Source of the DNA: Halobaculum sp. MBLA0147
GTDB taxonomy: Archaea; Halobacteriota; Halobacteria; Halobacteriales; Haloferacaceae
Assembly: GCF_041361345.1 (NCBI RefSeq)
Contig: NZ_JBGKAD010000003.1
Span: 62,001-126,000 of the forward strand
Direction: 5' to 3'
DNA: 64,000 nucleotides
A program made the translations under genes and the position numbers. A model generated the notes under the pieces. That model did not search any database. It had not been told where the DNA came from and saw nothing but the letters and a program-made list of their open reading frames with translations. Shown here piece after piece: positions 37,372 to 43,985 of this stretch. Numbering within the stretch: the stretch's first letter is position 1; each line of letters starts with the position of its first letter.

Positions 37372-38721
37372 TCAGTCGTCTGCGGGTGCCGTCTGCAGGT
37401 CCTGTTCGCCGGCGCGGTCGTGGAGGAGACACGCCGACTTGTGGTCGTCGCCGTGATCGGTGTACTCGGGGTTCGTCTCCTCACACGGCGTCGAGAACTG
37501 CATCATCGTCTCCGCGGCCCCGGGCTGGTCGTCCGCGAGCAACTGCTCGAACGTCTCGTCGAGTGCCTCGGCGACCGTCGGGTCGTCGGCGCTCGTCGGG
37601 AGCTCGAACTCCTCGCGGATCTCCGTCTCGACGGCCTCGTCGGACACCGCCTCGGCGCTCTCGCTCTCCGCGGCCAGCCCCGCACGGGTGCTCTCGACGT
37701 CGATCTCGCCCGTTCGGACCTTGTCGCGGAACGTCAACAGCGCCCGCCAGTCCTCCTGGTCCAAATCGTACTCGTCGGGCATGATGACGCGGTGACACCG
37801 GGTGTGGAACCGACAGCCGTCCGGCGGCGCCGTCGGACTCGGGACCGTCCCGTTCAACTCGATGTTCTCGCGACCGGCACGCGGATCGGGCTGGGGAATC
37901 GCCGACAGCAGCGCCTCCGTGTACGGGTGCTGTGGGTCCGCGAACACCTGGTCGGTCGGCCCCAACTCGACGATCTCGCCGAGGTACATCACCGCGACCC
38001 TGTCACACACCTCGCGGATGACCGACATGTCGTGGCTGATGAACAGCATCGACAGCCCGAACTCCTCTTGAATCTCGTTGATGAGAGAAAGGATCTCCGC
38101 GCGGATCGACACGTCCAGCGCGGACACGGGCTCGTCCGCCACGATGAAGTCCGGGTTCAACACGAGTGCCCGAGCCAGCGCGATACGCTGTTTCTGCCCG
38201 CCGGAGAACTCGTGAGGGTACCGGTCGTAGTCGCTCGCCATCAGTCCGACCCGCTCCAGCAGGTCCTCGACGATGGCTCGGCGACGGTGTCTGTCGGTCA
38301 TCCCGTGGACCTCCAGCAGCTCCGCCACCGACTTCCCGACCTTCATCCGTGGGTCGAAACTCGACGACGGGTCCTGGAAGATCATCTGTGCGTCCCGACG
38401 GAACCGCTTCAGTTCCTGGTCGTCGAACTCCGTGATGTCGTTCGGGTGCGTGCCGTCGGCGTTGCGACTCTTGCCGCCGCGACCGCCGCCGTTGAAGATC
38501 ACTTCCCCGTCGGTCGGGTCCTCCAGGCGGATGATCGAGGAGGCCGCCGTCGACTTCCCACACCCGGACTCGCCGACGAGCCCGAGCGTCTCGCCCGGCT
38601 GGATGTCGAAGGAGATTCCGTCGACCGCCTTCGCCGCGCCGACCTGCCGGTTGAGGATCCCCTTCTTGATCGGGTAGTGCTTCTTCAGGTTCCGCACGGA
38701 GACGATCGGTTCCTCAGTCAT
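37372..38721 (-). CDS. dppF: Peptide ABC transporter ATPase DppF-type
   Basis: A protein of 449 residues. Walker A GESGCGKST, signature FSGGQKQRI, Walker B FIVADEPVSALD and switch His in LFISHDMSVI mark the ATPase. The oligopeptide-binding C-terminal domain has Cys in GCRFHTRC and in later positions, which suggests a Fe-S or zinc site as in other Dpp/Opp ATPases. An acidic extension of about 100 residues follows. GGAGGTG eight bases before ATG 38721 fixes the start, which overlaps the dppD end by eight bases. It is the last gene of the five-gene operon dppABCDF. Confidence 0.93.
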   Translation of the reverse strand: MTEEPIVSVRNLKKHYPIKKGILNRQVGAAKAVDGISFDIQPGETLGLVGESGCGKSTAASSIIRLEDPTDGEVIFNGGGRGGKSRNADGTHPNDITEFDDQELKRFRRDAQMIFQDPSSSFDPRMKVGKSVAELLEVHGMTDRHRRRAIVEDLLERVGLMASDYDRYPHEFSGGQKQRIALARALVLNPDFIVADEPVSALDVSIRAEILSLINEIQEEFGLSMLFISHDMSVIREVCDRVAVMYLGEIVELGPTDQVFADPQHPYTEALLSAIPQPDPRAGRENIELNGTVPSPTAPPDGCRFHTRCHRVIMPDEYDLDQEDWRALLTFRDKVRTGEIDVESTRAGLAAESESAEAVSDEAVETEIREEFELPTSADDPTVAEALDETFEQLLADDQPGAAETMMQFSTPCEETNPEYTDHGDDHKSACLLHDRAGEQDLQTAPADD

Positions 38722-39751
38722 CCGCGACACCTCCGCTGCGAGCCGCACCACTGTCGTCGCCGGTGATCACGGACTCGTCGTACCCCGGCCCGTAGTAGAT
38801 GCAGGAGGCACTGTGGTCGTCCGCGACCTCGTGCTCCGGCGGGTGCTCGCCCGTGTGACAGGCGTCGACTGCGTAGTCACACCTGGGGGCGAACCGACAG
38901 CCGTCCGGCACGTTCACCGGACTCGGGAGCGACCCGCCGATCCCCTCGACCGCCTTGCTCCTGCCGGGGAGACACTCCATCAGCGCCTTCGTGTACGGGT
39001 GCGAGGGGTTCTCGAACACCTCGAACACGTCGCCACGTTCCATCACCTTCCCGGCGTACATCACGACCACGTGGTCGGCGATCTCCGCGACCACACCGAG
39101 GTCGTGCGTGACGAAGAGCACACCCATCCCGTAGTCGTCTTGCAGCCGGTCGAGCAGGTCGAGGATCTCCGCCTGGACGGTCACGTCCAGTGCCGTCGTC
39201 GGCTCGTCGGCGATCAACAGGTCCGGGTTCGTCACCAGCGCCATCGCGATCATCACGCGCTGTTTCTGGCCACCGGAGAACTCGTGCGGGTAGTCGTCGA
39301 ACCGCGCGGCGGCGTTGGCGATCCCACACTCCGAGAGGAGTTCGATCCCACGCTCGCGCGCCGCCTCGCGGGACACGTCCTCGTGCATCTGGACCGCCTC
39401 GACGATCTGCCACCCGACGGTGTAACAGTGGTTCAGGGCGTCTTGCGGGTTCTGGAAGATGTGTGCGATCTTTCCGCCACGGAGGTCCTGGAGCGACTCG
39501 TCGTCCATCTCCGTGACCTCCTCGCCACGGAACCGGATCGAGCCCTCGATGTGGCCCGGCGGGCTCTTGACGATTCGCGAGACGGACTCCGTCGCGACCG
39601 TCTTCCCGGAGCCGGACTCGCCGACGATACACACCGTCTCCTCCTCCGCGACGGTGAAGTCGACGCCGTCGACTGCCGTCACTGTGCCACCGTCCGTGTC
39701 GAACGTCGTCGTGAGGTCTTCGACCTCGAGTAGTGGGGGTGTCCCGCTCAT
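38714..39751 (-). CDS. dppD: Peptide ABC transporter ATPase DppD-type
   Basis: A protein of 345 residues. Walker [10 protein letters not shown], signature FSGGQKQRV, Walker [13 protein letters not shown] and His in LFVTHDLG. The C-terminal oligopeptide domain includes [15 protein letters not shown] and a later Cys. It forms the second ATPase with DppF. The ATG overlaps the dppC stop by four bases, so translation is coupled. No anomalies were seen. Confidence 0.93.
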
Positions 39752-40938
39752 GATTCGTTCTCCGCGCTCGCTTCGGGGTTCAGTGCGTCGAGCAGTGCGT
39801 CACCGAGGAAGTTGAACGCCAGGATCGTGAGGAACAGGAAGATCCCCGGAGCCAGCGTGATCCACGGGGCGAACCCGAGGTCGTCGCGGCCCGTCGAGAT
39901 CAACTGTCCCCACGAGGGCACCGTGGAGTCACCCAGGCCGAGGAACGCGAGTTGTGCCTCGGCCAGGATGAACCCCGGCACCAACAGCGTCACGTCGGTG
40001 ATGATACTGCTCGCGGTGTTCGGGACGATGTGTCGCCGAACGATCCGGTACGTGCTCGCCCCACTCAGTTTCACCGCCTTGATGTACTCCTCTTCCACCT
40101 TCGAGAGGGCGTTACTCCTGACGTACCGAGAGGTACCCTCCCAGGAGAACAGCCCGAACAAGACGATGAACAGGAACAGGCCCCCGCCCCAGATGTAGAG
40201 GATCAGCAGGTAGAGGATGAACGTAGGGAACGACTGCTGGATGTCGACCCACCGCATCAGGATCTCGTCGACCAGCCCACCGGCGTACGCGGCGGTGGTC
40301 CCGACGGCGGTCCCGATGGTGATCACGATCAGCGTCGCGATGAAGCCGATCTTCATGCTGATCTGCATCCCGTAGATGATGATCTTGAAGATGTCACGCC
40401 CCTGCTGGGTCGTCCCGAGCGGGTGTGCCAACGTCCCCTGGCAGGCACCGCCCGCGACGGTACCCACACAGTTGATCACGAAGTTCGTGTTCACCTCCAT
40501 GAACATCGGCGGCTGGTACTTCCTGAACAGCGCCACTTCGGGCGCCGAGAGGAAGACGGGACCGACGATCCCAGCCAGGAAGATGAACAGGAGCCACCCG
40601 AGACTGACGAGTGCCGGGCGGTTCTTCTTGAACTGTCGCCAGTAGTACTTCGTCATCCGTGGGTTCTGGTACAACGGGAGGACCCCGTAGAACCCGAAGA
40701 CGACGAGAGAGAGGCTGAACAGGTAGTCGAGTTGCGACACGTCGTAGCCCCAGCCGACGAACTCGAAGGTCGGGGTGTACTGTCCGAGTGCGACGAAGTC
40801 GTAGGCGAGCAGCGCCAGAATCGCCAGCGTCGTGACGACGGTCCCGAGGAAGTTCACCGAGAACCCTCTGCCACTCGACTGGCTGACCTCCTCCCAGTCG
40901 ACCTCGTCGAATCGTTGGTTGGAATCTTGAGTTGCCAT
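39748..40938 (-). CDS. dppC: Peptide ABC transporter permease DppC-type
   Basis: A protein of 396 residues, longer than the usual 300 because of an N-terminal extension with two extra helices (about 27-50 and 68-85). The core has the permease loop EYIKAVKLSGASTYRIVRRH that contacts the ATPases. FVINCVGTVAGGACQGTLAH is an exterior loop. It starts at ATG 40938, six bases after dppB ends. Confidence 0.92.
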   Translation of the reverse strand: MATQDSNQRFDEVDWEEVSQSSGRGFSVNFLGTVVTTLAILALLAYDFVALGQYTPTFEFVGWGYDVSQLDYLFSLSLVVFGFYGVLPLYQNPRMTKYYWRQFKKNRPALVSLGWLLFIFLAGIVGPVFLSAPEVALFRKYQPPMFMEVNTNFVINCVGTVAGGACQGTLAHPLGTTQQGRDIFKIIIYGMQISMKIGFIATLIVITIGTAVGTTAAYAGGLVDEILMRWVDIQQSFPTFILYLLILYIWGGGLFLFIVLFGLFSWEGTSRYVRSNALSKVEEEYIKAVKLSGASTYRIVRRHIVPNTASSIITDVTLLVPGFILAEAQLAFLGLGDSTVPSWGQLISTGRDDLGFAPWITLAPGIFLFLTILAFNFLGDALLDALNPEASAENES

Positions 40939-40944
40939 GCTTGT

Positions 40945-41919
40945 CTATCTGTCAGAGAAGTCGATGCGCGGATCCAGGACCGTGTACACGAGGTCCTGTA
41001 GCAGGTTCCCCACGGTCGCGACGAACGTGAAGAACAGTGTCGATCCGAGCACGACGTTGGTGTCTTGAGCGATGAGCGCGCTGAACAGGAGCCTCCCGAG
41101 CCCGGGAATCCCGAACACGACCTCGACCAACAGCGACGCTCCGGTGAACAAGTACAACAGGTACCCGACCAGCGTGGTCGAGACGGGTACCAGCGTCGGC
41201 CGGAGGACGTGCCGGAAGTAGATCCGGTAGATCGAGACCCCCTTCGCACGCGCCGTCTTCACGAAGTCCGCGTTGACGTACTCGGCGGCTTCGTTGCGCG
41301 ACACGCGCATGAGTCCACCGATGGACCCCGTGACGAGCACGAACACGGGGACCACCAACTGGACGAAGTTGTCCCAACTGAACACGGCTACGTCGGTGTC
41401 GTAGATGATCGGGATCCACTCCAACTCGACCCCGAACACCAACAGCAGTATGATCCCGAAGAAGAAGTTCGGGATGGCGTACCCGAAGAACGCGAAGCCG
41501 GTGGCTAAGTGGTCACGCCAGCTGTACTGGTTCGCGGCCGAGTACAGCCCGACGACGGGACCGATCAGGATAGTGAGCAGCGTCCACGGTATGGAGTACT
41601 GCGCAGTGTAGAACAGGGCGTTCAGGATCGCCTCTGTCACCGGTTGACTCCGTGTGTCGGACCACCCCCACTGGAGGGTGTAGATACTCGACACGTAGTC
41701 GACGTACCGCACCCACGGCGGTCGGTCGAGCCCGAGTCGTTGCCTCGCGTCTTCGCGCGCCTCGTTCGGGTTACCGCCCTCGAGTGCCGCCTGTGTCGAC
41801 GCTGCTCGAACCTCCGGGTTCGGCGCAGCAGCCAACAGGCCCCACGTGATCGAGACGATGATGAACGTCACGAAGAACGCCCATGCGACACGTCTAGTTA
41901 CGTACCATCCCATTCCCAT
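40945..41919 (-). CDS. dppB: Peptide ABC transporter permease DppB-type
   Basis: A protein of 324 residues with six helices. The coupling loop is DFVKTARAKGVSIYRIYFRH. The start MGMGWYVTRRVAWAFF, with ATG 41919, is preceded by GGAG about 10 bases upstream. A run of T (cgtttttcaacg on the minus strand) in the 71-base gap after dppA may reduce read-through or mark an RNA processing point, which would give more of the binding protein than of the membrane parts. Confidence 0.92.
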   Translation of the reverse strand: MGMGWYVTRRVAWAFFVTFIIVSITWGLLAAAPNPEVRAASTQAALEGGNPNEAREDARQRLGLDRPPWVRYVDYVSSIYTLQWGWSDTRSQPVTEAILNALFYTAQYSIPWTLLTILIGPVVGLYSAANQYSWRDHLATGFAFFGYAIPNFFFGIILLLVFGVELEWIPIIYDTDVAVFSWDNFVQLVVPVFVLVTGSIGGLMRVSRNEAAEYVNADFVKTARAKGVSIYRIYFRHVLRPTLVPVSTTLVGYLLYLFTGASLLVEVVFGIPGLGRLLFSALIAQDTNVVLGSTLFFTFVATVGNLLQDLVYTVLDPRIDFSDR

Positions 41920-41990: not shown

Positions 41991-43895
41991 TTACTCCTCT
42001 CGGTACCAGGCGTCGCCGTTCCAGCCGTTGAAGAAGTTCTCGGCGGGACCGACGATGTCGCTGGAGTACCCGGACTGATCCGGAGTGAACGCCAGCATCC
42101 CCATCGGCTGATCCTCGGCGATCTTCGTGAAGATCTCTGCCAACGTCGACTTCAGCTCCTCCTCACTGGACGCCGTGGACGCCTGGTTGAACAGCTCCTT
42201 GGCGTTCCAGGACGGGTAGTACCCGTACGGGTTGTAGAAGGAGTCCTTGATGAAGAACACGGACCCGGTGGTCGGGTTCAGCGGGTAGGTGTTCAGCCCG
42301 TAGACCAGCGACATGTCCCAGCCGTTCTGGCTCGTCGCCTTCGTCCGCGGCCCGGCGTTGTAGTTCCCGTTACTCCACTCGAGGGAGTCGGCGTTGTCCG
42401 GAATCTCCTGCTGCCAGTACTTGTTCGCGAACTGAGCGCCCTGAATGGCCTCGACGCGAACGTCGATACCGGCGTTCTTCGAGAACTCCTGTGCGACGAA
42501 CTCAGCCGTCGCCTTCTCCGTGTTCTGTCCGGCGCTGTGGAAGAGGTTGAGCGACACCTGATCGCCCTCGGGGTTGACCAGCGTGTCTCCCTGGTAGGCG
42601 TAGTCCGTGTCGGCGATGGCCTCCTTGATCCGGCTCTGGGTCGCCTCCTTGCCGTAGAGGTCGCCGTCCGGGTTCCCGAACTCCGCGACCGGCTCTTCGG
42701 GGTACCACTTCGACCAGCGGGGCTGCCAGGTGTACTCCGGCTCCGCGAGCCCACGGTAGACACCCTTCACGAGCCGCTTCTTGTCGACGGCACACCCCAG
42801 TGCACGGCGGAACTTCCGCTTCCGGAACAGGTTGCCCGGACCGGTGTTCCACCCGTTGGCCCGCATGTTGTAGACGAGCGGGACGTTGTACGGCTGGGGG
42901 ATGATCTCGACGTTGACGCTGTCGAGGTCACGGAACTTCGACACGCGGTTCGGCGGGATGGCGGCGTAGTCGGTGTCGCCCGTCTCCAGCGCACCGAGTC
43001 GCGACGACTGCTCTTCAACGACGCGGAGTCGGTACGTGTCGAAGTACGGAGCCTTCTCGAACAGCTCGAACTCGTCGGTCGCCTCCCGCATGAAGAACTC
43101 GTCGTTGCGGGTGAACCGGAGTTCGTTACCACGGTTCCACTCTTCGAGCTTGTACGGCCCGAGGTTCCCCGTGAACGACAGGTTGTTGAGCTCCTCGTCC
43201 TGCTTGAGCCCCTCGGCGTCCTCCTCGTTGACGTACGGCTCCAGCAGTCCCTTCGGGACCGGGTAGAGGATCGGGTCGTACGTCTCGGGGTACAGCAGGT
43301 TCGCCTCCGGCAGTTCGATCTGGATCTCGTACTCGCCGGTCTGCTGGATCGACTCGACCGTGTCGCTCCCCCAGGAGTCGCTGTCCGAGGTCGCGGTCCA
43401 CTCCGCCTGCTGGAGTTCTTGGACCTGGTAGACGAAGTCCTCGGCGGTGACTTCGCCGTACGGGTCACTGAACTTCATGTTGTCGCGCACCGACGCGACC
43501 CAGACCTTCCCACCGTCGTCGGTCTCGAGCGACTCCCAGGCCTGTCCGAGGTACCGAGTCCCCGGTTTGAAGCCGTACGTCGTGAGCAGCGTCTGGGCGA
43601 TGGCACCGGCTGCCGTGTTCTCCGTGTTGTAGATCCCGTTCAGGGTCTCGATCGGGCTCGAGATAACCGAAGTGTACGTCCCACCGACTTCCGGAAGGTC
43701 ACTTCGTGGGGTCGGCGTGTCCGTCTCCGTCCCGAGGGCATCGCCATCGGTCTCGGTTGCCGTACCGGTCTCGGTCGCCTCGCTGCCACCACCGGAACAG
43801 CCGGCGAGTGCGGCTGCTCCGCCGATTCCCATGGCGCCGAGCCACTTCCGGCGATTGATACTTCTGTCGTCACCACGTCTGTGTGGGAGTGTCAT
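41991..43895 (-). CDS. dppA: Peptide-binding lipoprotein DppA-type (SBP family 5)
   Basis: A protein of 634 residues. The Tat signal NRRKWLGAMGIGGAAALAGC includes the lipobox Cys, and a Thr/Glu linker follows. The mature part is a family 5 solute-binding protein (YTSVISSPIETLNGIYNTEN, GEVTAEDFVYQVQEL, FRRALGCAVDKKRLVKGVYR). It binds peptides or similar solutes outside the membrane for DppBCDF. The start ATG 43895 lies 28 bases from the centre of a TATA box, so the transcript is leaderless; the 15 codons before it in frame contain that promoter and are not coding. Confidence 0.93.
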   Translation of the reverse strand: MTLPHRRGDDRSINRRKWLGAMGIGGAAALAGCSGGGSEATETGTATETDGDALGTETDTPTPRSDLPEVGGTYTSVISSPIETLNGIYNTENTAAGAIAQTLLTTYGFKPGTRYLGQAWESLETDDGGKVWVASVRDNMKFSDPYGEVTAEDFVYQVQELQQAEWTATSDSDSWGSDTVESIQQTGEYEIQIELPEANLLYPETYDPILYPVPKGLLEPYVNEEDAEGLKQDEELNNLSFTGNLGPYKLEEWNRGNELRFTRNDEFFMREATDEFELFEKAPYFDTYRLRVVEEQSSRLGALETGDTDYAAIPPNRVSKFRDLDSVNVEIIPQPYNVPLVYNMRANGWNTGPGNLFRKRKFRRALGCAVDKKRLVKGVYRGLAEPEYTWQPRWSKWYPEEPVAEFGNPDGDLYGKEATQSRIKEAIADTDYAYQGDTLVNPEGDQVSLNLFHSAGQNTEKATAEFVAQEFSKNAGIDVRVEAIQGAQFANKYWQQEIPDNADSLEWSNGNYNAGPRTKATSQNGWDMSLVYGLNTYPLNPTTGSVFFIKDSFYNPYGYYPSWNAKELFNQASTASSEEELKSTLAEIFTKIAEDQPMGMLAFTPDQSGYSSDIVGPAENFFNGWNGDAWYREE

Positions 43896-43919
43896 CCACT
43901 CGTATGCTCCACCTTGCCG

Positions 43920-43927
43920 TATATAAT
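43920..43927 (-). promoter_or_regulatory. TATA box of the dpp operon
   Basis: ATTATATA on the minus strand, centred 28 bases before ATG 43895 of dppA. The spacing fits a leaderless transcript. Confidence 0.75.
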
Positions 43928-43961
43928 CTCTTTGATCCACTCCGCCAGTGAGCGGTTGTAA

Positions 43962-43985
43962 TGGCTGAAATTCGAATTTCAGCCA
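43962..43985. promoter_or_regulatory. Perfect 24-bp palindrome upstream of dppA
   Basis: The two half-sites TGGCTGAAATTC and GAATTTCAGCCA (43962-43985) are perfect mirror complements with no spacer. The centre is about 50 bases upstream of the TATA box. It is A/T-rich within a GC-rich gap, which is typical of an operator or activator site for a dimeric regulator. The regulator is unknown. Confidence 0.7.

Follow-up and report, generated by a model that had tools for sequence, protein, structure and literature searches.

A palindrome upstream of a haloarchaeal peptide-uptake operon: a probable operator recurring at peptide transporter and halolysin promoters

The dppABCDF operon of Halobaculum sp. 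MBLA0147, contained in the window analysed (the whole stretch of DNA under study, 64,000 nucleotides long), is preceded by a perfect palindrome of 24 bp, and the question raised by this locus is whether that sequence is the binding site of a regulator, and of which genes, or a symmetry arisen by chance. The genome assembly amounts to 4.29 Mb in 6 contigs, with the dpp operon on a contig of 308 kb. The features concerned are the following:

37372..38751, minus strand: dppF, ATPase (ABC_tran and oligo_HPY)
38714..39751, minus strand: dppD, ATPase (ABC_tran and oligo_HPY)
39748..40938, minus strand: dppC, permease (BPD_transp_1 and OppC_N)
40945..41919, minus strand: dppB, permease (BPD_transp_1)
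41991..43895, minus strand: dppA, Tat-type lipoprotein, family-5 solute-binding protein (SBP_bac_5, Pfam)
43920..43927, minus strand: TATA-like box of the dppA promoter, TATATAAT on the plus strand (from sequence and position relative to the dppA start)
43962..43985, no strand: perfect 24-bp palindrome, outer limits of the proposed operator (from sequence; single copy in the genome)
43966..43981, no strand: proposed operator core TGAAAT-N4-ATTTCA, the part recurring in other promoters (from comparison with other promoters)

A first-pass annotation had described a fully symmetric palindrome, a complete peptide-uptake operon and no adjacent regulator gene. The palindrome (TGGCTGAAATTC/GAATTTCAGCCA) is present as described, the five dpp genes are all recognised by Pfam, and the neighbours encode an amine-oxidase-like protein, a DUF6360 protein and a nitrite/sulfite reductase, none of them a DNA-binding regulator; a histidine kinase and a chemotaxis transducer are found 4-7 kb from the palindrome. 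The site lies in the 386-bp gap between dppA and the DUF6360 gene, 66 nt upstream of the dppA start (ATG at 43895-43893, minus strand), and a leaderless dppA transcript is plausible from this arrangement. It is indeed placed upstream of the TATA box, but the edge-to-edge distance is 34 bp instead of the approximately 50 bp originally given. A hairpin or other transcript structure was set aside, the palindrome being upstream of the promoter and without a loop.

On its own, the symmetry is suggestive but not decisive, since about two palindromes of such length are expected per genome of 4.29 Mb under an order-2 Markov model (3 perfect palindromes with arms of at least 12 per 6 Mb); the view that the site is rare by chance holds for a 64-kb window, with about 0.03 expected, but not for the genome as a whole. 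In a 400-kb sample of the main contig, no palindrome had arms longer than 10. Frequent occurrence in coding sequence, which had been put forward as a test, is not seen in the Halobaculum sp. MBLA0147 genome, where a whole-genome search at up to 3 mismatches gave a single copy, and at the same tolerance the 24-bp palindrome was found in no other genome among the 170 of the window's family.

As regards the dppA promoters of relatives, the core was found in 3 of the 46 scanned, the window included (2 of 45 from other genera), which counts against the operator reading, and the remaining orthologs gave nothing convincing at up to 2 mismatches. Close dppA orthologs are lacking in the congeners, two of the three having a homolog with 30-32% identity, and no homolog reaching the threshold in the third. 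In Halomarina rubra (G342) and in a second Halomarina genome (G463), the dppA promoter carries the variants TGAGTGAAATCGAAATTTTAGCCC and TGGCTAAAATTGGAATTTTACCCT, which match the palindrome at 17 and 19 of 24 positions, respectively, compared with maxima of 14-16 of 24 in shuffled controls. Moreover, the end of the core is 72 nt from the dppA ATG in both genomes versus 70 in the window, one of the two variants has both half-sites altered symmetrically, and a conserved block coincides with the palindrome site in the alignment of the H. rubra promoter. Inheritance of the site together with dppA was considered and rejected, as the DppA tree (45 proteins) contains no clade joining the window and Halomarina, and most orthologs lack the site. 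The 220 bp upstream of the relevant genes in four named plasmid relatives (Halocatena marina dppA, the subtilases of Halococcus dombrowskii and Natrinema thermotolerans, and a solute-binding protein of Haloarcula sp. JP-L23) were also devoid of it (0/4). The dppA promoters of genus g13 (7 loci) share a different block directly above the TATA box, roughly CCATGKTACYRAACRACA, and a different regulator has possibly taken over there.

The site also recurs away from dppA. A consensus built from the window and Halomarina sites was searched in 392 genomes of the order and matched in 7, versus 1 for the reversed control; five of the matches are identical sites before the gene of a secreted subtilase (halolysin; Peptidase_S8) in genus g9. 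When halolysin orthologs were retrieved by protein search rather than through the motif (with a query two bases out of frame), the site was present in 10 of 10 g9 genomes, and in none of the 12 genomes of other genera, the latter result counting against the operator reading. The exact core, TGAAAT-N4-ATTTCA, occurs at 32 sites in 27 of the 170 family genomes, the reversed pattern giving a single site in the same set, and 22 of the 32 belong to the promoters of genes for halolysin or family-5 (peptide-type) ABC transporters: 13 at the g9 halolysin locus, five before a family-5 solute-binding protein in genus g6, two before another such protein in genus g5, one between divergent permease genes in g28, and one in the window. 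The transporter assignments are backed by Pfam. As for the other 10 exact cores, at least five fall within long reading frames, and none, judged by eye, fronts a peptide gene. At three of the 13 g9 halolysin loci (G029, G030 and G035) the gene has decayed while the upstream operator is intact, so that the promoter outlives the gene.

A relaxed search in 10 genomes (GCTRAAATN4ATTTYAGC, up to 3 mismatches, all 55 contexts inspected) did not reveal an increased number of near-matches, 55 being found versus 75 in the reversed control, and it is their location alone that stands out. Six of the 55 are upstream of family-5 transporter genes: before dppA in the window genome (G000), G342 and G463; before a second solute-binding protein, an ortholog of the g5 protein (47-51% identity), in Halomarina G342 and G445; and at a divergent permease pair in Halomarina G344, like the pair of g28. 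A seventh (G054) is between the genes of a solute-binding protein and a permease within one operon. The second-protein sites are situated about 140-175 nt from the ATG in all four cases (G342, G445 and the two of g5). Since the groups of solute-binding proteins are mutually only about 21-26% identical, and hence not orthologous, the site has not simply been inherited with one gene. In G463, a further near-match (GGGTAAAATACAAATTTTAGTC, at G463:C3:185429) has a TATA-like sequence on one side and a DUF7260 gene on the other.

The alignment of 24 sites (18 of them distinct), sought with a spacer of 4 and mostly found by the half-site pattern, allows the functional part to be delimited. The half-sites are nearly invariant among the 18 distinct sites, partly as an effect of the pattern used to find most of them, with G as the next base after ATTTCA in 17 of the 18. 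Symmetry is low in the four central bases and in the outer flanks, the central pairs being symmetric in 7 and 6 of 18, and in the 13 g9 halolysin promoters invariant half-sites enclose a variable 4-bp centre. A fully symmetric centre with symmetric ends is exclusive to the window genome among the aligned sites. Judged from this comparison, the functional part is the 16-bp TGAAAT-N4-ATTTCA operator, and because the centre and flanks of the other sites show little symmetry, the 24-bp symmetry is read as that operator with a largely coincidental centre and ends. Wherever a TATA box could be assigned (by eye), it lies downstream of the site, whose distance to the start is nearly constant within each gene group. 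A helical phasing of the dpp and halolysin sites, two DNA turns apart, was discarded, operator-to-TATA distances scattering from about 8 to 46 (TATA placed by eye).

The site thus recurs upstream of the TATA box at non-orthologous peptide transporters and at halolysin, and the comparison of these promoters makes it very likely that an unlinked dimeric transcription factor, controlling a peptide-scavenging regulon, has the palindrome as its operator. The operator proposal of the first-pass annotation is retained as the best reading by virtue of this recurrence, the length and symmetry on which it was first based being weaker evidence. We infer protein binding, activation and a signal at the site: one subunit of the dimer would contact each half-site (TGAAAT, read inward), the two being about one DNA turn apart given the N4 spacer, and the bound regulator would recruit TBP/TFB once preferred nitrogen or amino acids have been exhausted. 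The regulator would probably act as an activator, because the site is upstream of TATA in every promoter where this could be placed, and because mutations in either half of the related SPS1 element of Natrinema (whose spacer differs by 3 bp) lower promoter activity.

Another possibility is a PadR-family repressor that has the site as its operator and regulates its own gene as well, with a ligand derepressing the peptide transporters. The only other near-match in the window genome, TGAAACTCCGGTTTCA (G000:C1 near 2050337), is 44 nt before a padR ATG and just upstream of a TATA-like sequence, with a geometry like that of the halolysin promoters; the relaxed dyad occurs at just two places in 495 kb of the window genome, dpp and padR, one of which was fetched for its match. 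On a Haloarcula plasmid, an annotated PadR gene is also found ahead of a dpp-like operon, although it is only weakly similar and not recognised by Pfam. However, this is a single case, none of the other 53 near-matches of the 10-genome search fronting a PadR gene (by eye), and a repressor site would more often overlap the TATA box or the start, whereas the window site is upstream; we therefore regard a PadR repressor as unlikely.

Two unrelated regulators with similar AT-rich dyads, one for g9 halolysin and the other for the peptide transporters, would agree with the different distances to the start codon (46 for halolysin versus 65-72 and about 140-175 for the transporters) and with the fact that, in the family exact-core scan, none of the genomes combines an exact core at halolysin with one at a peptide transporter. 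The six-base half-sites and the spacer are nevertheless identical, the flanking G is shared by nearly all the distinct sites, and a single physiological theme embraces halolysin and the peptide transporters, which makes this explanation quite improbable. Finally, a functionless symmetric sequence arisen by chance would fit the number of palindromes expected in 4.29 Mb, the single genomic copy, the dppA promoters that mostly lack the site and the full symmetry restricted to the window genome, but it is very improbable in view of a core that recurs, in several genera, upstream of peptide transporter and halolysin genes (22 of the 32 exact family sites).

Returning to the single dimeric activator, the closest known counterpart is the sptA promoter of Natrinema sp. 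J7-2, where, in the accessible part of the report, the element GAAAT-N7-ATTTC (SPS1) is located upstream of TATA and mutating either half reduces activity, SptA being repressed by ammonium (PMC6085418). Both SPS1 and the window core have half-sites GAAAT/ATTTC upstream of TATA, and SPS1 fronts a halolysin and is experimentally positive. They differ in the spacer, 7 in SPS1 versus 4 in the window and in 24 of 24 aligned sites (sought with that spacing), and SPS1 overlaps a negative element, TTCTT-N10-AAGAA, of which none was seen in the window (PMC6085418, same part).

Regarding the protein, an unlinked member of the Lrp/AsnC family is the leading guess, a tentative one, with PadR as a doubtful second, or else another family. 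According to the accessible text of PMC2894021, the Lrp of Halobacterium salinarum (OE3923F) raises the transcripts of dppB, C, D, F and glnA, a positive response of peptide transporter genes like that proposed here, but it is a different protein in a different species and that text does not give a dpp operator. The Lrp/AsnC-like CsmR of Haloferax volcanii has, in the part of PMC13286277 available, a ChIP motif, TATCA-N4-TGATA, which shares with the window core the inverted repeat, the 4-base spacer and the location upstream of BRE/TATA, and which is bound by an Lrp/AsnC-like haloarchaeal protein; its half-site is different, its targets are motility and cell shape, and CsmR is likewise another protein of another species. 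Furthermore, archaeal Lrp dimers bind inverted repeats of 13-17 bp, and the 16-bp core fits this description of an imperfect repeat with two half-sites, as given in the available section of PMC2995911. Compared with the AT-rich centre of Lrp-type sites, AAAT/ATTT flank in this case a free 4-base centre, often G+C. The same section describes FL11 of Pyrococcus, an archaeal feast/famine regulator, with a 13-bp palindromic site (PMC2995911). FL11 differs from the window case in its hyperthermophilic host and in its targets, amino-acid biosynthesis and an ATPase. The half-sites of FL11 are TGAAA/TTTCA, with a spacer shorter than that of the window core. Two findings speak against a straightforward role of Lrp: in Halobacterium, Lrp predictions made from structure showed no enrichment for Trh4, which corresponds to H. 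salinarum Lrp (PMC4177876, in part), and a Haloferax Lrp candidate has been linked to a different motif, AAAGACTAART (PMC6801745, in part). Lrp-like genes are present in the sampled stretches of the window genome and nothing ties them to the site.

In a broader form, we lean slightly towards one operator and a single unlinked activator switching on, in the family and Halomarina, at least four unrelated peptide ABC transporters as well as secreted halolysin, with the site moving between operons as lineages swap them. In the literature searched, most subscription journals being outside its coverage, no earlier report of TGAAAT-N4-ATTTCA was found. How halolysin is switched on is a question of haloarchaeal physiology in which the regulatory proteins were still to be determined according to the accessible part of the 2018 Natrinema study (PMC6085418); an operator common to halolysin and peptide uptake would serve as bait for the regulator and predicts which genes should respond together.

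The scope of the site was further delimited by a scan of TGAAAT-N(2-8)-ATTTCA over the 392 genomes of the order, 30 contexts being inspected. At these 30 wider-order loci, with spacers 2-8, no association with peptide genes was seen save for one spacer-2 site between subtilase genes, which counts against the operator reading; nor is spacing 4 favoured outside the family (14 of 75 among the matches listed, by hand count). In one genome of 1.9 Mb (G179) there are 8 matches, with spacer 5 in all five among the matches listed, and these spacer-5 matches look like a separate repeated element. Four genomes of genus g46 conserve a different dyad, TGAAAT-N3-ATTTCA with an ACT or AGT centre, in front of a gene for a putative membrane signal transducer.
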